Notes under the pieces: generated by a model
Told to the model about the DNA's origin: nothing
The model's database searches: none
What the model saw: the letters and a program-made list of their open reading frames with translations, nothing else
Part shown: positions 1 to 10,362 of the stretch, piece by piece
How positions within the stretch are numbered: the first letter of the stretch is position 1
How the letters are laid out: each line of letters starts with the position of its first letter
Translations under genes and position numbers: made by a program
Assembly: GCA_036495685.1 (NCBI GenBank)
Contig: DASXMJ010000114.1
Location: forward strand, 1 to 64,000
Direction: 5' to 3'
Source: Candidatus Binataceae bacterium
GTDB lineage: Bacteria > Desulfobacterota > Binatia > Binatales > Binataceae
Length of the DNA: 64,000 bases

Positions 1-624
1 AGGAGCATATTCAGTGCGCCCTTCGCCGGTCGTGATTGATCTCACCACTACGTCGCCAGTGTTCACGCCCACCCGTGCCTGGATTGGAAGGTCACCTTCT
101 GCGCGGGTGCGGTCCGAGTAACGTTTCAGCTCCTCCTGAATTCGCAGCGCAGCGTATAGGGCGCGCTGCGGGTGGTCTTCGTGAGCGACTGGCGCGCCGA
201 ACACCGCGAAGATCCCGTCGCCAGTGGACTGCGCGACGTAGCCGCCGTAGTGCTGGACCGCTTCGATCATCAGCTTGAGTGCCGGATCGACGATAGCGCG
301 CGCCTCTTCCGGGTCGAGATCCTCGATCAGCTCCATCGAGCCCTTGATGTCGGCGAAAAGGGCGGTAACGGTCTTGCGCTCGCCTTCCACATTCTCGGCC
401 GCAGATGTTCCAGTCACCCGAATGGGCGTATCGTTCGCCTTCGCCCCCGCTAGCCCAAGAACTGCCGGGCCCGCTCCAAACGCGGCACCGCAGGAATCGC
501 AGAATTTTGCATCCGTGCGGTTTTCTGCTCCGCACGAGGCACATCTGGGCGAAAGCTTAGAGCCACATTTGTCGCAGAAGCGTGCGCCTTCTCGATTGTC
601 AGCTCCGCATTTCGCGCAGCGCAT
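1..624 (-). CDS. Zinc-ribbon class III adenylate cyclase/AAA ATPase, copy A (partial)
   Basis: The N-terminal 208 codons are present; the rest lies beyond the left edge. Translation from the ATG at 624 gives two CxxC zinc ribbons (MRCAKCGA, CDKCG, CASCGAEN, CDSCG), then the cyclase catalytic domain with the metal-binding stretch ALFADIKGS and the loop TGDGIFAVFG. It breaks off at GRTEYAP. The sequence closely matches the start of the complete paralogue at 6137-9463, and the bases around both start codons are identical (CATGGTGGTTAC on the plus strand). By family, it would make cAMP or cGMP and couple this to an ATPase with a TPR tail. The divergent neighbour is a secreted propeller gene. Family call is firm; the missing domains are inferred from copy B. 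Confidence 0.85.
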   Translation of the reverse strand, partial: MRCAKCGADNREGARFCDKCGSKLSPRCASCGAENRTDAKFCDSCGAAFGAGPAVLGLAGAKANDTPIRVTGTSAAENVEGERKTVTALFADIKGSMELIEDLDPEEARAIVDPALKLMIEAVQHYGGYVAQSTGDGIFAVFGAPVAHEDHPQRALYAALRIQEELKRYSDRTRAEGDLPIQARVGVNTGDVVVRSITTGEGRTEYAP

Positions 625-1030
625 GGTGGTTACCCAGGTCCCCCTCGTTTGCAAGACGCTCAAGACTAAGCCCCTTTCAGCGCGCATCGCAAAGGTTTGA
701 TTTGAGAGGCGGAGCGACCGTCCACCTATGGTCCCGCCCACCTTCCGAGCGAGAAAAAGGACGCGCGATACAGTCGCGGTACCACCCTGCAAGGACCACA
801 AAGACGCAAGCAGGAATGATTATCAAATTTATGCCAAATACGCCGAAATCGAAGGGGGTTACCGCCCCGCACCCTGATTATCAAGATGCTAATCACTCCG
901 CAGCACTAAATTCCCCAACGTTGCGGAAGGCCATTTTTCCCGGGCACCGACGCAATAAAAGTACTCGGGAATTTCTGCCGGGGAATTATTTTCCCGAATA
1001 CGTTAAGAGGACCCGATCCAGGCTTGGCGC
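625..1030. repeat. Upstream noncoding segment duplicated with cyclase-ATPase copy A
   Basis: This stretch aligns with 9464-9930 in the same position relative to the paralogue's start codon. Shared blocks include GCAAGACG just upstream of the start, AGCGAGAAAA, CACAAAGAC, GATTATCAA, GCCGAAATCGA and TGATTATC...ATGCTAAT (around 870-893). It is interrupted by small indels. No open frame of its own is convincing. It probably contains the promoter and 5' leader of copy A, duplicated together with the gene. Confidence 0.65.
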
Positions 1031-1033
1031 CAA
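1018..1033. repeat. 16-bp exact repeat containing a perfect palindrome
   Basis: CCAGGCTTGGCGCCAA occurs here and again at 9986-10001; it contains the 10-bp palindrome TTGGCGCCAA. Imperfect relatives lie at 6098-6112 (GGGCTTGGCGTCAAA) and, with AA replacing CG, at 1095-1110 and 5366-5380 (GGCTTGGAACCAAA). It may be a protein-binding site or part of a dispersed intergenic repeat. Confidence 0.5.
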
Positions 1034-1077
1034 ATGGACTTGATGGAGGCGAGAGCGTGCCACGCCGACGACAGAAT

Positions 1078-1187
1078 ATGACCATCTGCACGGAGGCTTG
1101 GAACCAAAGAGCCGTACGGAATTCAAGGCGATCCGCGGAGCGTAGGATTAGCATCGTTTCGCTCCGCGCGCGGAAAGACTAGCCACC
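1078..1187 (+). repeat. Direct repeat R1, left flank of the secreted-protein cassette
   Basis: About 110 bases that align with 5349-5458 in the same orientation, with roughly three quarters of positions matching. Landmarks are TGACCATCTGC, GGCTTGGAACCAAA, a GCGGAGC block and a final CCGCGCG...AAAGA...TAGC. The two copies differ by small indels that would shift any reading frame, so this is a noncoding repeat. Together they bracket the propeller gene and its small partner. Confidence 0.6.
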
Positions 1188-1490
1188 TAGTGGACCTTTT
1201 ACCGCTAACAAGATGTTGGATGCTGCCCGGGATCAATAATCTCGTTCTTTTGGTTTGCGTGATCAATTTGCGCCAATCGAAAACGCAAACCTCAGAATCA
1301 CGGAACCAGGAGATCCCGTTGCGTGCAGGGGCGCGACGGATCGCGTGAGACACCTACAGGCGGCGACCGGAAATCTAACCTCATCTTGCTGTCTCGATTG
1401 GTTCTGACAAATAACTACAACTTGTAATCTAACAGTGATTAAGAGTAGCCTTCGTGTGGCTGCACCACACCGACGCTAGGGGGACCAACC

Positions 1491-4400
1491 GTGAAGCAGA
1501 ACTCGGTTTGGAGCGCGTGGACGCCTCGCCACAAAGGGGCAGTTCGAGTCAGCCTGATAGCAGTGCTCCTTCTCGGCGGCGCCGGACTCTTGGGGCTGAG
1601 TGCGCACTCGCGAGCAGCCGATTTGAACCCGCCAAGTCAACCGATCCCGCTTGTCAGCGTCCAAGATCGGATCGAGCGGTCCAAGTTTTTCGCCAGCAAA
1701 CTAGGCCTTGAGTTTGGCGTACCCGCAGGCGCACGCCGCGGCGCCATTACTCGAGGAGCGGCGACCGCGCTCTCGGCTGCGGTGACACCTACCAGCAGTC
1801 TCGCCTGGAGCAACATAGGGCCCCTCCCGATGAATGAGGCAGCGAACTTCGGCGGCGTCATCGTCGGGACTCCCGTAGCCATGACTGGACGGGTGAGCGC
1901 TATCGCGGTAGACCCGGCTAATGCGGCCAACATCGCTATCGGCGGCGCCAACGGCGGGATCTGGCTCTCGGCCGACACCGGCACAACGTTCAAACCGGTA
2001 TTCGATTCCGAACCCAGCCAAGCCATCGGCGCATTGGCCTTCGACACCAGTACCTCACCGTCGACTTTGTGGGCCGGAACCGGCGAAGGCAACAACGCGG
2101 TCGACACCTACTATGGGCAGGGGTTGTTCAAGTCGACCAACTTGGGCAGCACCTGGACCTCGGTGGGCAGTTTTGATCGCGTCGCCTTCTCCAGGATCGC
2201 GGTAGACAACTCCTTCTCGCCCGCCCATATCTTTTTAGCGACTGGCAATGGAATCAGCGCCGGACGCTCAGATCCAGCGTTCAACGAGACCGACTTCACC
2301 AAGCAGGGCCTGTACCGTTCCACTGACGACGGTGTCACATTCTCGCAATACAGCGGGGCGGTGTTTGGGTGCTTCCTGGGTGGCGGTCCGTGCCCGGCCG
2401 CCGATGTCGCGGTCGACGGCAACCTTGTTGCTGCCGCGATCAACTTCGATAACGTTTTCATCTCCACTGACGCGGGAACAACGTGGACTCCCGCCAACTT
2501 TCCAGGCTTGACATTAGGCCCCGGTATCCTCAGCAACACCTTTCGTCAGAGTGTAGCTATTCAAACCGCCAGCCCAACGACGATTTACGCCATGGTTGGC
2601 AATGCCGCAGGGACCGCCTATCTGGGGTTCTTCACGTCAACTAACTCGGGCGCCACCTGGACAGCCCAAACGGTGCCGCAGGCCACTTTGAATGGAGTGA
2701 CCATTGACGGCACAAGCAGCAGTAATATCGCGCAGTCGTTTTACGATCAGTACCTACTCGCATCGAAAATCACACCCGGGCTGGTGAGCTTTGGTGGTCT
2801 GGGACCGTATCTGTCAACCAACGGCGGCGCGACATGGATCTTTCTCGGCGCAAACGGCGGTATTCACACCGACCAGCATGCGGCCGCCTCCAACCCGACC
2901 GAGAGCACACTCTACATCGGCAACGACGGGGGCGCCTATGCGGTTAATGCGAGCAACGGCAGCATCGCGTCGCTGAACAACGACATCAACATCGGCCAGA
3001 TCCAGGGCATCGGACCACTACCGCCCAGTGGCAGCAAGCTGATCGCCGGGTTCCAGGACAACGGTACACAGATTTTTTCGGGCACCCCAGCCTGGTTCTT
3101 TGCTGAAACTGGTGACGGGGGCTTTGCCCTGTTTGATCAAAAAGACCCGAGCTTCGCATACCACACCCTTGCTAGCGTGGGTGCCGGTATCCCTGTCGTC
3201 TCCATGTCCACCGACGGCGGCAACACGTGGAGCTTCAACACGCCGACCACCAATCTTGAAAACGCGCTCATCGCGGCCGGCGACCGCGGGGCGAACTTCT
3301 ACCCGCCGCTGGCCAGCGATCCGATTACCGCCCATCGCGTCTTGTTCGCCGCTCAATTCGTTTACGTGTCGACCGACGGGATGGTCACCTGGGCTCGGCA
3401 GAGCACTACTGATCTCACCAGCGGTACCTGCGCCAGCACCTTCTGCGACGCTGGCGATGTGGAGTTCTCACCGGTCGATTCCACCAGGGCATGGGCTCTT
3501 GCAATGACCTTCAACGGCTCCGGCTTTGAGATCTCCAACACCACGCAAGCCAATTTGAACAGCGGTGGCACCTGGAACAACGTGACCGCCAACTTCAATT
3601 CGACGGCAGGTGCTAGTGCCAACACAACCACCCAGATAACCGGTGTTACCCCCGACCCGTTCAGCGCCCAGACTGCCTACGTGACGATCTCAGGCTTCAA
3701 GGCATCTACCGGAATCGATCACATTTTCAAGACTACCGACTTCGGCACAACCTGGAGTGATGTGACCGGCGATCTGCCCGACATTCCATCGCTGCGCCTG
3801 CTTGTGGATAACCAGGATTCGACCGGCCAAACGTTGCTCGTCGCCACCGACATCGGAGTATTCCGTTCAACTAATGGCGGTACAAACTGGGTGCAGGTGA
3901 GCCCCGCAGCGGCCGGTGGCACGCTGCCGGCGGTGCCGGTGTTCGATATCGAGCAGAGCAGCAACGGATTGATCTTCATCGGTACTCACGGCCGTGGTGC
4001 TTACCAGTTAACCACCGCCGCGGCGACTCCGACTCCAACCCCTACTTCGACCGCGACGCCAACAGCCACCCCGACCGCCGCTCCTACTTCCACCGCGACT
4101 CCCACCATCGCGCCTACCCCGACGGCAATACCAACCCCCGTCGTTACCGTAGTCTCCTCGGGAAATGGCAGCGGCAAGCCTGGCTCGACTGTCGCCGGCG
4201 GAACCTTTGCCATCTCCAACAGCAGTTCTGGTATGGAAATGATCTCCTCGGTAACCATCGGGGTAAGTGATCCCAAGGTGTTCTCCTCCCTGACCCTGAC
4301 CGCGACAGTCGGCGGAGCCCAAACCGTTTCCGGCCCGGTCACGCCAGCCGGTTCAACGGTCTTCAGCTTCTCGCCTCCATTGAGTCTGGCGAGCGGACAG

Positions 4401-4793
4401 AGCGCGAAGTTCGCTCTTAGCACCGTCATCTCGATGAACCCCGCAACGAACAATCAACGCCGCGTTCAATACGTATATGCGGCGATCGGTCCTACGACCG
4501 GTGACAAAGATGAAAATTCGGGCGGGCTTTGTCCGCTGCTCTGGGGGCTTGGGATGATTGGAATCACCTTGCTTAGCACTAACGAACTCAAGCGACTCAG
4601 AATTATTGCTTTCACATCCCTTGCACTAATGATTGCGCTCGGTGCGGCCGGATGCGGAGGGGGCAGTGGAGGCGGTGGTCGTACCGTCAGGCCATCATCC
4701 ACCCAGACCGTGCAGGCGGCATCGGTCACGCTGGGCGGCGTCACCCAGACTGTCGGGGGTTTACCGGCGACGCTTGGAGAGATCAAGGGCTGA
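1491..4793 (+). CDS. Secreted BNR/sortilin-type beta-propeller protein with C-terminal anchor
   Basis: An 1100-residue exported protein of unknown ligand. The GTG start is supported by an AGGGGGA ribosome site eight bases upstream and a signal peptide with the core VSLIAVLLLGGAGLLGL. The body is built of repeated Ser/Thr-Asp-G-G-T/A-T-W motifs (STDDGVTF, STNSGATW, STNGGATW, STDGGNTW, TTDFGTTW, STNGGTNW), the signature of BNR or VPS10-like propeller blades. A Pro/Thr linker (TPTPTPTSTATPTATP, about 4024-4140) leads to an Ig-like stretch. The end is odd: a membrane span (LCPLLWGLGMIGITLL), then basic KRLR, a second hydrophobic stretch ending LGAAGCGGGSGGGG, and a short tail. This resembles a C-terminal membrane or sorting anchor. 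It lies opposite to both cyclase genes. Confidence 0.8.
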   Translation: MKQNSVWSAWTPRHKGAVRVSLIAVLLLGGAGLLGLSAHSRAADLNPPSQPIPLVSVQDRIERSKFFASKLGLEFGVPAGARRGAITRGAATALSAAVTPTSSLAWSNIGPLPMNEAANFGGVIVGTPVAMTGRVSAIAVDPANAANIAIGGANGGIWLSADTGTTFKPVFDSEPSQAIGALAFDTSTSPSTLWAGTGEGNNAVDTYYGQGLFKSTNLGSTWTSVGSFDRVAFSRIAVDNSFSPAHIFLATGNGISAGRSDPAFNETDFTKQGLYRSTDDGVTFSQYSGAVFGCFLGGGPCPAADVAVDGNLVAAAINFDNVFISTDAGTTWTPANFPGLTLGPGILSNTFRQSVAIQTASPTTIYAMVGNAAGTAYLGFFTSTNSGATWTAQTVPQATLNGVTIDGTSSSNIAQSFYDQYLLASKITPGLVSFGGLGPYLSTNGGATWIFLGANGGIHTDQHAAASNPTESTLYIGNDGGAYAVNASNGSIASLNNDINIGQIQGIGPLPPSGSKLIAGFQDNGTQIFSGTPAWFFAETGDGGFALFDQKDPSFAYHTLASVGAGIPVVSMSTDGGNTWSFNTPTTNLENALIAAGDRGANFYPPLASDPITAHRVLFAAQFVYVSTDGMVTWARQSTTDLTSGTCASTFCDAGDVEFSPVDSTRAWALAMTFNGSGFEISNTTQANLNSGGTWNNVTANFNSTAGASANTTTQITGVTPDPFSAQTAYVTISGFKASTGIDHIFKTTDFGTTWSDVTGDLPDIPSLRLLVDNQDSTGQTLLVATDIGVFRSTNGGTNWVQVSPAAAGGTLPAVPVFDIEQSSNGLIFIGTHGRGAYQLTTAAATPTPTPTSTATPTATPTAAPTSTATPTIAPTPTAIPTPVVTVVSSGNGSGKPGSTVAGGTFAISNSSSGMEMISSVTIGVSDPKVFSSLTLTATVGGAQTVSGPVTPAGSTVFSFSPPLSLASGQSAKFALSTVISMNPATNNQRRVQYVYAAIGPTTGDKDENSGGLCPLLWGLGMIGITLLSTNELKRLRIIAFTSLALMIALGAAGCGGGSGGGGRTVRPSSTQTVQAASVTLGGVTQTVGGLPATLGEIKG

Positions 4794-4794
4794 A

Positions 4795-5232
4795 ATGACG
4801 GCCAAAGTGAGCGGGCGGGTTCCTAACCTACTAACACTTGCGTGCGGAGCCCTCATCGCTCTTTTAGTCTACCAAGAGCCCGGATGTGCTAATACTCCAA
4901 CATCGACGCCGTCACAGTCCATGAGTGATTCGGGCATATATGGGTACCTGACCGCTGCCTTAGGCAATGCGCCGGCCAATCCACCCTCGACGCAATGCGT
5001 CAAGGTGTATGGCTCAGCGGGCGTCAACTTGATCGCGCGAGGAACCTGTTCCGGAATGTTTGGAAGCTTCCGCGTGCCGCTGCCACCGGGGCGATATGTG
5101 GTTGAACTAGGAGGAAGCTGGGAATCGAAAAATGGGGCCGTGTCCTTCGTTCCGAATCGCCGAACCCTCGAGATCCGTGAGCGCCAGTGGCTCAAACTTG
5201 CGCCCCCATCGCCGCTTGGTCCGGTTCCGTAA
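4795..5232 (+). CDS. Small exported protein paired with the propeller
   Basis: A 145-residue protein beginning one base after the propeller's TGA, so the two are almost certainly co-transcribed. The N-terminus has a signal peptide (LLTLACGALIALLVY) ending near EPGCANT; the Cys could be lipidated, but the lipobox is not canonical. The mature part is Gly/Pro-rich. The segment FRVPLPPGRYVVELGG resembles the conserved strand of carboxypeptidase-regulatory or Ig-like beta-sandwich domains. I do not recognise a family. Its position suggests a partner or accessory of the propeller protein. Confidence 0.65.
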   Translation: MTAKVSGRVPNLLTLACGALIALLVYQEPGCANTPTSTPSQSMSDSGIYGYLTAALGNAPANPPSTQCVKVYGSAGVNLIARGTCSGMFGSFRVPLPPGRYVVELGGSWESKNGAVSFVPNRRTLEIRERQWLKLAPPSPLGPVP

Positions 5233-5348
5233 AGTTCGCGTTCACAAAATTTGGTACCCGACCGTAGATAAGGAGGACCAATCGAAGCTTGGGAGTCATA
5301 CCGTACTCGGTGGTGAAACAAAGGGGTGGGCACTCCCGGCAAAATGGA

Positions 5349-5458
5349 GTGACCATCTGCCGCTGGGCTTGGAACCAAACCGCCGGACCGGATTTCAATA
5401 CGATCGCGGAGCACAGGGTTGATTATCCGTTGTTCCGCGCGAAAAAGAGTAGCTACAA
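5349..5458 (+). repeat. Direct repeat R2, right flank of the secreted-protein cassette
   Basis: This is the partner of R1 (1078-1187) in the same orientation, starting about 115 bases after the small exported gene. It shares GTGACCATCTGC, GGCTTGGAACCAAA and TTCCGCGCG. Another, weaker relative may lie at about 9985-10167. No transposase or integrase is nearby. Confidence 0.6.
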
Positions 5459-5512
5459 AGCGAGCGATCTATTGAGCAATCGGGTTTGCGGGCGTCGCGG
5501 GGACTACGGCGC

Positions 5513-5749
5513 TTAGAATCCGCGTGGCCGCTCTTTGGCCGAGAGCGCAAAGGGACTGAACGATAAGTCCCTGGCCTGCGCCAGACGCTGCTTGCGCTTG
5601 CGCGCTTTTGCGGCGCGAGCTCGCACCAAGTTTGGAAAGCCTAGCGAACGCCAGAATGCCGCACGCTTGCGACCATATACCCTGCAACGCGCGATGCGCC
5701 CTTTGGGACCCGACGGGGAGCTGGGAGGACCCGATCGGAAGCGTTCGTG
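5513..5749 (-). pseudogene. Arg/Lys-rich coding relic, second unit (no start codon)
   Basis: A 78-codon open stretch ending in TAA, in the same frame as the unit upstream of it and separated from that unit only by the TGA at 5750-5752. It carries GRKRAAFWR, LGFPNLV and ARAAKAR, followed by an RL...S..PFAL motif shared with the neighbour unit. Over the 25-codon core (5600-5674 against 5960-6034), 15 codons differ and 13 of those are synonymous, so the sequence diverged while its protein was under selection. No ATG, GTG or TTG precedes the conserved core. Function unknown; the high Arg/Lys content would suit nucleic-acid binding. Confidence 0.55.
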
Positions 5750-6136
5750 TCATCGACGCTTCTCACGACGGGCCTTGAAGAGTGAGTAGCCATTGGGCGC
5801 TTTCTTACGTTGGAGCGCAGACAAGTCCGCCCTGTGTCCGCGCGTTTGGACTTTGTTTCTGGCGACTGAAGCCCATAGATGCGCGTCCTCAGGCAGTGCG
5901 AACGGGTTGACTGATCGCGCGAGCGCCAACTCTTCTCCTTTCAATCGCTCAAGTCGGCAGCGAGCCTTTGCCGCGCGGGCTAACACCAGATTGGGAAACC
6001 CCAATGCACGCCAGAAGGCGGCACGCTTTCGCCCCAGCGCCCTGGCGCGGCACGAACGTCCAAGCAGGACCCGCTCGCGGATAGAAGGACCCGATATGGG
6101 CTTGGCGTCAAACTGGAGCTGGTGTTTGAAGGAGGT
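5750..6136 (-). pseudogene. Arg/Lys-rich coding relic, first unit (in frame behind the cyclase-ATPase)
   Basis: 128 open codons that begin immediately after the TGA of the cyclase-ATPase gene, in the same frame, and end at TGA 5750-5752. The core reads GRKRAAFWR-A-LGFPNLV-L-ARAAKAR, then SVNPFAL, then a basic C-terminus (KARREKRR). The only common start codon, a TTG at 6004, falls inside the conserved motif, so no normal start is visible. Possibilities are a former C-terminal extension of the upstream protein, a gene that lost its 5' end, or a product made by readthrough. The strong synonymous bias against its neighbour says that it was functional for most of its history. Confidence 0.55.
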
Positions 6137-9100
6137 TCAGTGTGAATTGCTCAACTCATCGAGCAGCGCCTTCGCGTCCTTCAGGTCGGCGGTGTCGAAG
6201 CCTTCGGTGAACCAGTTGTAGACTTCGGCGAGCGTCGCGCACGCCTCGTCGCGCTTGCCTTGCTTCGCGAGCAATCGCGCAAGGCTCGTCGTTGCGCGCA
6301 GCTCCCAAGCCCTCGCCCTCATCTTTTGCGCAAGCGCGATCGCTTCACGGAGGTCGGCCTCGGCCAGTTCCATCTGCGCAATTTTGAACCGCAGTTCCCC
6401 GCGACAGTTCAGAGCGTCGGGTCGGTAGAGCAGTTCCCCTGGGTTCGCCTGGAGCGCCTCCCCGATCGTGGCGAGCGCGTCGTCGATAGTACCGTCGAGC
6501 GCCTGAGCCTCCGCCATACACGTGAGATAATTAGTGATTCCGCGCCGTGCCGATTCGACCAAGCCGGCTAAACCATGGCGGATCAGCGAAACGCCTTCGC
6601 CGGCGCTGCCGAGCTGTGCCCGCGCCCAACCCAAGTAGATGCGGGACCAATCTGTGACAAAGCCATGCTCTTCGGACAAGGCCAGCGCGTGCGTGGTCGC
6701 AGCCTCAACGCGCTGCGGATCTCTGAGAAGCTTGTACAGCGAGCCTTCAAAAAGTCGTCCGGCCGCCATGTTGATAGGGTTCTTGCTATCACGGGCGACG
6801 GCGAACATCTGGGCGATACGCTCGCGGGCTTTTTCGGCATGACCCATCATCCACGCGCTAAAAGCCGCAAGACCGAACGGAAATATGTTAAAAACGGGAA
6901 CCTGCACATCACCGCCCCTATCCCGGCAGAGGCTCCAGCGCGCGAAATGCTCCTCGGCTCCGACGAGGTCCCCGAGATAGAAGCGCACGGTCAGTTGAGC
7001 ATTGTGAGCGAATCCGAGGCTGGTGGGGCTGCCCTCGCGCTGCGCGAGGTCGAGTATCTGGTCGGCAAGCGCGGCGGAGCCAGAGATGTCACCCGAGTTC
7101 CAAGCGCCAATCTCTGTCCAGAATAGTTGCATAATTAGCTGCGCAAGGTTGCCGCCTTTTTCGGCAAGGGCCACTGCGCGCGCGGCTGCCTCTCGAGTCT
7201 CATGCGCACTAAACCCTTTAAGGTACAGAAGCACCGGTACCAGCCTGCTCGCAAGCTCGAACTCACGCGCGTCACGCTCAACTGAATCGGGCAGCCGATT
7301 GATCCACTCCAGCCCCTGCTGCAGATGCGCTTGAGCCTCGGCCACGGCGGCGCGCTCCAGCGACTGTCTGCCGGCGAGCGTCAGATACCGCACCGCCTTA
7401 TCGGCGTTAGCGGCCTGGGTGAAGTGATGCACCAGCTCAGTCAGATGATCCTCGAGGCGGCCTGGGAACACCGATTCGATGGCTTCACCAGCGCGGTCGT
7501 GGAGCGCTCGGCGCCGCTCGTTCAGCAGCGAGCCTAACGCGACCTCCTGCGTCAGCGCGTGCTTGAAGATAAATTCGACCTCGCCCACCGCCGGCTGCTC
7601 GTAGATGAACTCGGCGAGCTGAAGCGCGGCGAGCATGCGATTGAGTTCCTCGTCAGATTTCGCGACTACCAGCCGCAGCAGACCCAAGCTGAACTCTCTT
7701 CCGATGACGGCCAGCGTCTGGAGCAGGTCCTTCACGTCGGCCGGCAGCCGGTCGATGCGCGCCGCGAGAATGCCCTGCACCGTCGGTGGAATCCTTAGCT
7801 GGTTAAGCGACTTGGCCAGTTTCACCGTTCCGTTGCGGACCAGCGCGCCGTCCTCGAACATCGACTGGACGATCTCCTCCATGAACAGTGGGTTGCCTTC
7901 GGTCTTCTCGACGATGACCCGCTTGAGCGGGTCCAGATCCTGGCCGTCACCGAGCATCGCCGACAGCATTTCCTCAGCCCTCTCCTGTCCCAGAGGATCG
8001 AGCCGCACCTGCGTGTAGTAGGTCTTGCCGCTCCACTGATGCGAATACTCAGGACGGTAATTGACCAGCAGCAGCACCTTCGCGGTGCCGATCGAATCGG
8101 CGAGCAGGTTCAGCAGCGCCTGCGTCTCGTCATCGATCCAGTGCAGGTCCTCGAATATCACCATCAGCGGCTGGTTGAGCGACTCGCGCAACAGAATCCG
8201 CTTGATCGCCTCCAGCGTGCGCCGCTTCTTCACCTGCCCGTCCATCCGGGCCAGCGGGTCGTCACCCTCGACGATGCCGAGCAACGCGAATAAGTACGGC
8301 AGCGTGTCCTCGAGGCTCCGGTCGAGCGCCACCACGCGACCGGTGACCTTCTCGCGCCGCTTGCGAAGGTCATCGCCGGCGTCGATGGCTAAGTAGCCGT
8401 GCAGCAGCCCGATCACGGGCAGATACGCCGATGCTTTCTGGTGCGAGACCGAGAACGTCTCCAGCACCATCCAGCCCGACTGCGAGACCGCCTTGAACTC
8501 GAACAGCAGGCGCGATTTGCCGACACCCGGCTCAGCCATCGCCGCGACCATCTGACCCCTTCCGGCGCGCGCTTGCTCCGCCGCATGCTTCATCGCGTCC
8601 AGCTCGCGCTGCCGTCCGACGAATTTGTTGTAGCCACGTCCTGCCGAGCGTTGCAGCCGCGTGCGCAGCGGACCCAGCCCGGTCACCTCATAGACGTTGA
8701 CTGGCTCGCTGACGCCTTTGACCTTCGTCGGACCGAGTGCCGTAAAGGCGAAGTAACCCTCGCACAGCTTCCTGACCTGCTCCGTCGCCGCGATCGAACC
8801 AATCGGAGCCAGTGCCTGCATTCGCGCGGCCAGACTGGTCGAGTGACCAATCGGTGCGTACTCGCCGTGCTTCTCGCCCGTCCGGATCTCACGCACCACC
8901 ACCTCTCCCGTGTTCACTCCGACCCGGACCTGAATCGGTAAGCGACCTTCGGCGCGGGTGCGATCGGAGTACCGCTTCAGCTCCTGCTGCATCCGGAGTG
9001 CAGCGAGAAGCGCGCGCTGCGGATGGTCTTCGTAAGCGACTGGTGCGCCGAACAGCGCGAAGATCCCGTCGCCAGTGGGCTGGGCGACATAACCGCCATA

Positions 9101-9463
9101 GTGATGGACGGCGTCGATCATCAGCTTGACCGCCGGATCCACGATGGCGCGCGCTTCCTCGGGGTCGAGGTCCTCAATCAGCTCCATCGACCCTTTGATG
9201 TCGGCGAACAGCGCGGTGACGGTCTTGCGCTCACCCTGGAGAATATCAGGACTGGACGTCTCGGCTACTCGAATCTGAGGCTCGTCGGACTTTGTGGGGG
9301 CCGCAATAGGTGTTCCAAGCAAAGTCCCACAATCGCCGCAGAATTTTTCACCAGGCTGAGTTGCAGCGCCGCATCGTGGACACTTGGCTGCAAGCAGAGA
9401 GCCGCATTGGGTGCAGAACTTACGCCCCTCGAGGTTTTCAGCTCCGCACTTCGCGCAGCGCAT
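6137..9463 (-). CDS. Zinc-ribbon class III adenylate cyclase/AAA ATPase with TPR tail, copy B
   Basis: A complete 1108-residue signalling protein. Domains in order: two zinc ribbons (CAKCG, CTQCG, CPRCG, CGDCG; residues 1-50); a class III cyclase domain (about 75-260; ALFADIKGS and TGDGIFALFG carry metal and substrate residues); an AAA-type ATPase starting GRQRELDAM with Walker A AEPGVGKS and a FEDLHWIDD Walker B; and a long helical TPR-like C-terminus. By family it converts ATP or GTP to a cyclic nucleotide and couples this to a STAND/MalT-like ATPase, usually as a cytoplasmic sensor. It is the paralogue of the partial gene at the left edge. Translation stops at TGA 6137-6139, but the same frame stays open far beyond. 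Confidence 0.88.
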   Translation of the reverse strand: MRCAKCGAENLEGRKFCTQCGSLLAAKCPRCGAATQPGEKFCGDCGTLLGTPIAAPTKSDEPQIRVAETSSPDILQGERKTVTALFADIKGSMELIEDLDPEEARAIVDPAVKLMIDAVHHYGGYVAQPTGDGIFALFGAPVAYEDHPQRALLAALRMQQELKRYSDRTRAEGRLPIQVRVGVNTGEVVVREIRTGEKHGEYAPIGHSTSLAARMQALAPIGSIAATEQVRKLCEGYFAFTALGPTKVKGVSEPVNVYEVTGLGPLRTRLQRSAGRGYNKFVGRQRELDAMKHAAEQARAGRGQMVAAMAEPGVGKSRLLFEFKAVSQSGWMVLETFSVSHQKASAYLPVIGLLHGYLAIDAGDDLRKRREKVTGRVVALDRSLEDTLPYLFALLGIVEGDDPLARMDGQVKKRRTLEAIKRILLRESLNQPLMVIFEDLHWIDDETQALLNLLADSIGTAKVLLLVNYRPEYSHQWSGKTYYTQVRLDPLGQERAEEMLSAMLGDGQDLDPLKRVIVEKTEGNPLFMEEIVQSMFEDGALVRNGTVKLAKSLNQLRIPPTVQGILAARIDRLPADVKDLLQTLAVIGREFSLGLLRLVVAKSDEELNRMLAALQLAEFIYEQPAVGEVEFIFKHALTQEVALGSLLNERRRALHDRAGEAIESVFPGRLEDHLTELVHHFTQAANADKAVRYLTLAGRQSLERAAVAEAQAHLQQGLEWINRLPDSVERDAREFELASRLVPVLLYLKGFSAHETREAAARAVALAEKGGNLAQLIMQLFWTEIGAWNSGDISGSAALADQILDLAQREGSPTSLGFAHNAQLTVRFYLGDLVGAEEHFARWSLCRDRGGDVQVPVFNIFPFGLAAFSAWMMGHAEKARERIAQMFAVARDSKNPINMAAGRLFEGSLYKLLRDPQRVEAATTHALALSEEHGFVTDWSRIYLGWARAQLGSAGEGVSLIRHGLAGLVESARRGITNYLTCMAEAQALDGTIDDALATIGEALQANPGELLYRPDALNCRGELRFKIAQMELAEADLREAIALAQKMRARAWELRATTSLARLLAKQGKRDEACATLAEVYNWFTEGFDTADLKDAKALLDELSNSH

Positions 9464-9930
9464 GGTGGTTACAGGCCCCCGCTCGCAAGACGGTCCAGAT
9501 TAGGCCTGTTCAGCACGTACCGCAAAAGCTCGAATTGCGTAGGTCGGACCGACCGCCGTGCTTTGGATCCCGTCCACTTTCCCCAGCGAGAAAAGCACGC
9601 GGTTTCGTTCTCGCGATCTAGAGTGCGGCACCCACAAAGACAATTGAAGCAATCGATTTGCTCTACGCCCCCAGCAAGCAGAAACGATTATCAATTTTAT
9701 GGCGGATAAGCCGAAATCGAGGGGTGGATCCAACCCGCGCCTGATTATCTAGGATGCTAATGATATCCGCCAATTTTCCGGATCTATATGCGCCATTTGT
9801 TGTGGAATGGAATTTTTTTCGGGCACTGCCGCGCATACCAAAAAATGCTGCCAAGATTGGGGAAATACGGCGAAATAAAATATCTGGGAATTTCGGCCGG
9901 GATTTATTTTCCGGGAGTTATTTTTTTCCG
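9464..9930. repeat. Upstream noncoding segment duplicated with cyclase-ATPase copy B
   Basis: This is the counterpart of 625-1030. The best conserved block is about 9685-9762 (GATTATCAA, TTTATGGCGGATAAGCCG, CGAAATCGAGG, CTGATTATC, GATGCTAAT). A second match is GGGAATTTC...CCGGG...TTATTTTCC near 9888-9930. The rest (to 10177) is noncoding, with the 16-bp repeat at 9986-10001 and a short direct repeat GGGTATCAA at about 10109 and 10122. Likely holds the gene's regulatory region. Confidence 0.6.
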
Positions 9931-10177
9931 GCGGCGGCGACGAAACGATTAACCGGTCCGCTCGGCGCGGCGCGGAGGCTCAGAGCCAGGCTTGGCGCCA
10001 ATGCGTGCCCCCTGGCCGGGGGGTGGTCGGACGTGCGACCGGGGCGTGTTCTTAAGCCGGAGGACAAGTCGGCCGAAGCGGCCGAAATGCCCCGAATTCA
10101 AGGCTGGCGGGTATCAAATGTGGGTATCAAGACCCGGGAGAAAGGCGGGTTATCGGGGAAAAGTGCTTGATTTTACT

Positions 10178-10252
10178 TGGTGATCCCAGCGGGAGTCGAA
10201 CCCGCGTTCCCGACGTGAGAGGCCGGTGTCCTAACCACTAGACGATGGGACC
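10178..10252 (-). tRNA. tRNA-Glu (CTC)
   Basis: A full cloverleaf on the minus strand. Acceptor GGTCCCA pairs with TGGGATC, the T-arm contains GGTTCGACTCC, and the anticodon loop TCTCA in the stem-loop GGCCTCTCACGTC gives anticodon CTC. The 3' CCA is encoded. It sits 34 bases downstream of tRNA-Gln in the same orientation, so the two are probably one transcript. Confidence 0.93.
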
Positions 10253-10286
10253 GTCTGTCGCGCGCCCACCTTAGGGGAAGTGGGTT

Positions 10287-10362
10287 TGGCTGAGGAGGAA
10301 GGACTCGAACCTTCAATCGCCTGATCCAGAGTCAGGTGGCTTGCCAATTAGCCGACTCCTCA
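10287..10362 (-). tRNA. tRNA-Gln (CTG)
   Basis: The minus-strand cloverleaf has acceptor TGAGGAG pairing with CTCCTCA, a D-arm GGCTAATTGGCAAGCC, anticodon loop ACTCTGGA (anticodon CTG), a T-arm with GGTTCGAGTCC and an encoded CCA. It is the first tRNA of a two-gene unit with tRNA-Glu. Confidence 0.93.

Follow-up and report, generated by a model that had tools for sequence, protein, structure and literature searches.

Two short open units on the minus strand of a Candidatus Binataceae genome, lying in the variable region beyond a tRNA-Glu gene, are probably decaying relics of an accessory gene of phages or small integrative elements that was once under selection; we put the probability of this reading at roughly three in four. 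It is based on homology to intact genes in phages and in elements with an integrase, on past purifying selection and on the parts that the copies have lost. The units themselves look like ordinary gene remnants, and the modest interest lies in their family, which is not in the catalogues searched.

Two units without a start codon behind a cyclase-ATPase gene

The window, that is, the whole stretch of 64,000 nucleotides that was analysed, contains the following features.

5894 to 6061, minus strand: unit 1, homologous part (GRSCRARALGRKRAAFWRALGFPNLVLARAAKAR...VNPFAL), without a start codon; from translation
5513 to 5707, minus strand: unit 2 (PKGRIARCRVYGRKRAAFWRSLGFPNLVRARAAKAR...SPFALSAKERPRGF-stop), without a start codon; from the profile match
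6067 to 6116, minus strand: leader of unit 1, common to a broken copy in contig C50 of the same genome; from local alignment
5706 to 5735, minus strand: leader of unit 2, common to unit 1 (ATCGGGTCCT...CGGGTCC); from local alignment, P 0.006
5751 to 5753, minus strand: ATG upstream of unit 2, with the core in another frame
6137 to 9463, minus strand: neighbouring cyclase-ATPase gene, not part of a unit, with zinc ribbon, guanylate/adenylate cyclase and AAA_16 ATPase domains (Pfam PF13240, PF00211 and PF13191)
10178 to 10252, minus strand: tRNA-Glu (CTC); from ARAGORN

Retranslation of the minus strand between 5510 and 6139 reproduced to the base the in-frame units and the motifs given in the preliminary description. 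The TGA at 6137-6139 is followed by 128 open codons up to the TGA at 5750-5752, and then by 78 open codons up to the TAA at 5513-5515. The lack of a plausible start was also borne out: ATG, GTG and TTG are absent in the core frame from the preceding stop to either core, and judged by the presence of a start codon neither unit is a complete gene. Unit 1 keeps its PFAL motif, and its frame then continues beyond the point at which its relatives stop, as far as the TGA at 5750-5752.

The preliminary description had considered a lost C-terminal extension of the ATPase, or an expressed readthrough product. The units share the frame of the cyclase-ATPase gene, and 128 codons pass without a stop, which speaks for an extension. 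However, among dinucleotide shuffles 4.6% have no stop in that frame over 128 codons, and 60% contain an open run of this length in at least one frame of the strand; with about one such frame in 20 expected by chance, the open frame says little about coding, and its length was rejected as an argument. Moreover, in 13 other cyclase-ATPases examined from this genome and a genome of the same genus, the end falls at the same point to within about a dozen residues and nothing similar follows the stop, which speaks against a lost extension. The DNA common to unit 1 and the C50 copy begins at about 6116, about 20 bases beyond the cyclase stop; thus, unit 1 is separate from the cyclase gene. As each intact relative is likewise a gene of its own with its own start codon, the readthrough product is not supported either, and we regard an extension of either kind as hardly credible. 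Two cyclase-ATPase genes occur in the region (1-624 and 6137-9463 of the window), and their family has 26 matching places in the window's genome and 8 in the same-genus genome.

Codon pattern of the core

The two units share a 25-codon core, GRKRAAFWR[A/S]LGFPNLV[L/R]ARAAKAR, in which 15 codons differ, 13 of them synonymously; our recount gave the same figures as the preliminary description. The 18 nucleotide differences are split 4/1/13 over the three codon positions. None of the other five frames of the aligned DNA has a comparable count: synonymous differences number 2 of 16 and 0 of 15 in the other two sense frames, and 1 of 15, 7 of 15 and 1 of 16 in the antisense frames. When 18 substitutions were placed at random, two or fewer changed residues were never obtained (0 of 20,000 placements). 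A non-coding DNA repeat was rejected, because the synonymous pattern is confined to one reading frame. The case for coding therefore depends on the codon pattern and on the homologues described below, and not on the open frame.

Over 34 codons, pN between the units is 0.16 and pS is 0.77 (saturated), so the units split a long time ago under constraint and are no fresh tandem copy. Unit 2 is identical to unit 1 at 27 of these 34 positions and to the protein of phage contig L077 at 26 of 34. From these comparisons the units appear to be old, separately constrained copies that lost their function recently, rather than products of a fresh duplication. The claim that the protein had been kept by selection thus holds for the past, on the basis of the codon pattern, the random placements and the pN and pS values.

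An uncatalogued family in phages, integrative elements and Binataceae genomes

The units belong to what we define here as the GFPN-core family, an uncatalogued family of small basic proteins of about 57-95 residues in the simplest forms. No member gave a match above threshold in Pfam, PHROGs, NCBIfam or PDB sequences, and a search of plasmids gave none. Among named phages, only a weak match was obtained (Mycobacterium phage BirdsNest, E 0.5), which was left unused, and the L154 protein as a query gave no match. In the profile search, unit 1 matched with E 2.8e-19 over 5933-6061 and unit 2 with E 2.3e-21, values to be read in the light of the query alignment, which itself contains both units; a single-sequence search also tied both units to genomes G029 and G032 and to contig C127 of the window's own genome.

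The preliminary description had made its claim depend on homologues in related genomes, and such homologues were found. The Binataceae MAG JOPF072 (G029) has six places with the family, and G032 and G040 have one each. With the window's genome, in which single-sequence and profile searches gave four copies (units 1 and 2 and those in contigs C127 and C50), the family is present in 4 of 41 genomes of the order and absent from the other 37, including the same-genus genome. A wider sample of 395 genomes from the phylum contributed nothing but weak, short matches. Single-sequence matches in distant genomes with E above 0.005, as well as weak profile matches in G100, G397 and G424, were taken as chance.

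A scan of IMG/VR, a collection that includes uncultured phages, gave intact genes of 57 amino acids in L077 (3300046372_000016), 60 in L076 (3300036804_000280) and 68 in L154 (3300036828_000700), and a related intact gene in L080 (3300037258_000517). Longer versions are present in L079 and L155, and L152 has a partial match; the phage copies form a varied set. Two of these phage contigs, L079 and L080, carry a terminase large subunit. L076 and L077 have a common gene set around the small gene, which is placed where leftward and rightward genes part.

In the intact phage-type genes the ATG is 15-16 codons ahead of the core (MFNSKTGR..., MLFDSKSAN...), and in the intact bacterial genes 16-17 codons ahead (MRFTRETGR, MPFTSETAR, MARFTSDSGR). 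The phage proteins end in PRGF-stop (including DDDRPRGF-stop) or SPYALTSKQKPKGY-stop. The window units resemble the genes of L077, L076 and L154 in core, length and the C-terminal PxG[FY]-stop, but the phage genes have an intact start, whereas the units have none and have a different leader. The narrower P[RK]G[FY]-stop of the phage members is found in unit 2 only, and SPxAL precedes this motif in L154. The end of unit 2, SPFALSAKERPRGF-stop, which closes with RPRGF-stop, matches L154, L076 and L077; its stop codon is therefore the original one. No further phage gene was found in the window.

An AlphaFold2 model made with 14 sequences is a helical hairpin, with helices at residues 4-26 and 29-46 and the conserved G[FYW]PN turn between them (mean pLDDT 79, pTM 0.40). 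Two things suggest that the intact protein may be a small nucleic-acid-binding or regulatory protein: the predicted helices are both basic, and the gene is located at the point from which the phage genes diverge.

The same small gene is carried by tyrosine-integrase elements at tRNA genes of Binataceae. In G040 (contig C157), a 4.6-kb island extends from a tRNA-Lys gene to a perfect 52-bp repeat of its end (L167 3007-3058 and 7583-7634) and contains a tyrosine integrase (PF00589, PF13356, PF22022), an HTH_36 protein (PF13730) and the GFPN gene. The complete element (L167:3007-7634) also encodes a 237-residue protein of no recognised kind and a putative lipoprotein. In G032 (contig C26), an integrase beside a tRNA-Gly gene is followed by a regulator and an HTH protein, which is 45% identical to that of G040, and the small gene lies further along. 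In G029 (contig C420), integrase pieces end about 170 bases ahead of the GFPN gene. Phage satellites and small integrative elements have a layout of integrase, HTH protein, tRNA site and a gene common to phages. The G040 element has this layout; a packaging or capsid-interference gene was not recognised in it.

A second small ORF family (SSLDFPEH...RPCTVPGCKCRIHEILPALEIM...NKQTKLGKEYNAPDEERL) was observed at 46 places in G029 and in none of the 40 other genomes of the order (loci L081-L092, JOPF072; also L038:3259-3507 and L040:2205-2447). Its changes are mostly at third positions, which indicates coding, and some copies contain stops. PHROGs and viral contigs gave no match to it. In three contigs this ORF adjoins the GFPN gene.

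Phages and integrating elements are the best-supported source of the small gene. An alternative is that the family is originally a chromosomal one of Binataceae that was picked up by phages and elements, in which case the window units would be host genes that have decayed. Several other G029 copies do have a start codon and sit between host-type genes with no integrase in view. However, the family is confined to 4 of the 41 genomes of the order and is missing from the same-genus genome; the G032 and G040 copies and one G029 copy sit with an integrase, and the phage copies are diverse. We therefore consider this alternative improbable.

State and origin of the copies in the window's genome

None of the four copies in the window's own genome is intact: units 1 and 2 have no start, the C127 copy loses its frame after GFPN, and the C50 copy has a TAG in the core. 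The suggestion that a duplicated gene family left the units behind as remnants is thus upheld, since homologues exist and every copy in the genome is damaged. In unit 1 and C50, a common leader replaces the usual N-terminus; none of 1000 shuffles reached the score of this alignment, and the comparison of unit 2 with C50 alone was not significant (P 0.12). An intergenic repeat of about 100 bases is dispersed in this genome; its copies at 5325-5420 and 1079-1186 of the window are 75% identical, and another lies at 4095-4191 in C127, not far from the broken gene copy of that contig.

Relatives have kept the tRNA-Gln/tRNA-Glu pair together with the genes that lie on its far side. Beyond tRNA-Glu, the sequence is different in all four relatives that are comparable over kilobases, and likewise in a short contig of G010; the window locus is therefore a variable region next to a tRNA gene. 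The units, like the gene in the G040 and G032 elements, sit by a tRNA gene, here on its variable side. Unlike in those elements, no integrase, HTH_36 protein or repeat of the tRNA end was found near them. The integrase and HTH proteins of related loci (integrases of three) gave no match in window positions 1-10300, and a repeat of the tRNA-Glu end was not found in the whole window, position 1 of which is the start of the contig. Accordingly, we did not assign the window locus to an integrated element. Beside the other two copies of this genome, in C127 and C50, an integrase or HTH element gene was likewise not found.

On the reading that we favour, the small accessory gene would reside in phages and small integrative elements, and copies of it would have reached this Binataceae genome on such elements. 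These copies, once under purifying selection, have lost the start (both units) or other essential parts (C127 and C50), and are probably no longer translated. Against this reading, the vehicle itself is not seen at the locus. Nor was an L079-type resident prophage seen, as no such terminase was found in the 41 genomes of the order, in a search that had no positive control. In addition, both startless units keep an undamaged core under long-term constraint, which could mean an unusual initiation.

The units might accordingly still be translated. A non-standard start could serve, such as ATC or CTG ahead of unit 1 and ATC ahead of unit 2, or else ribosomes could begin at the out-of-frame ATG at 5751-5753 or at the TTG at 6111 and then shift frame. 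The undamaged cores, the intact stop of unit 2, the strong codon constraint and the leader common to both units and, for unit 1, to C50 are consistent with continued translation. On the other hand, the start codons near the units are out of frame, with offsets to the core that differ in phase between unit 1 and unit 2; the other two copies of the genome are plainly broken, and the intact relatives use an ATG 15-17 codons ahead of the core. We consider continued translation unlikely. A bolder proposal holds that the family is an undescribed regulator of soil phages and tiny tRNA-integrated Binatota elements, exchanged by helper phages and satellites, and also that the startless pair is a domesticated copy translated from a non-standard start; as a whole, this seems to us very improbable.

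Whatever the fate of the individual copies, a small uncatalogued protein links unassigned phage contigs, Binataceae genomes and tRNA-integrated elements. This link points to possible hosts for phages of a phylum that is largely uncultured, and the family is a candidate addition to phage annotation libraries.
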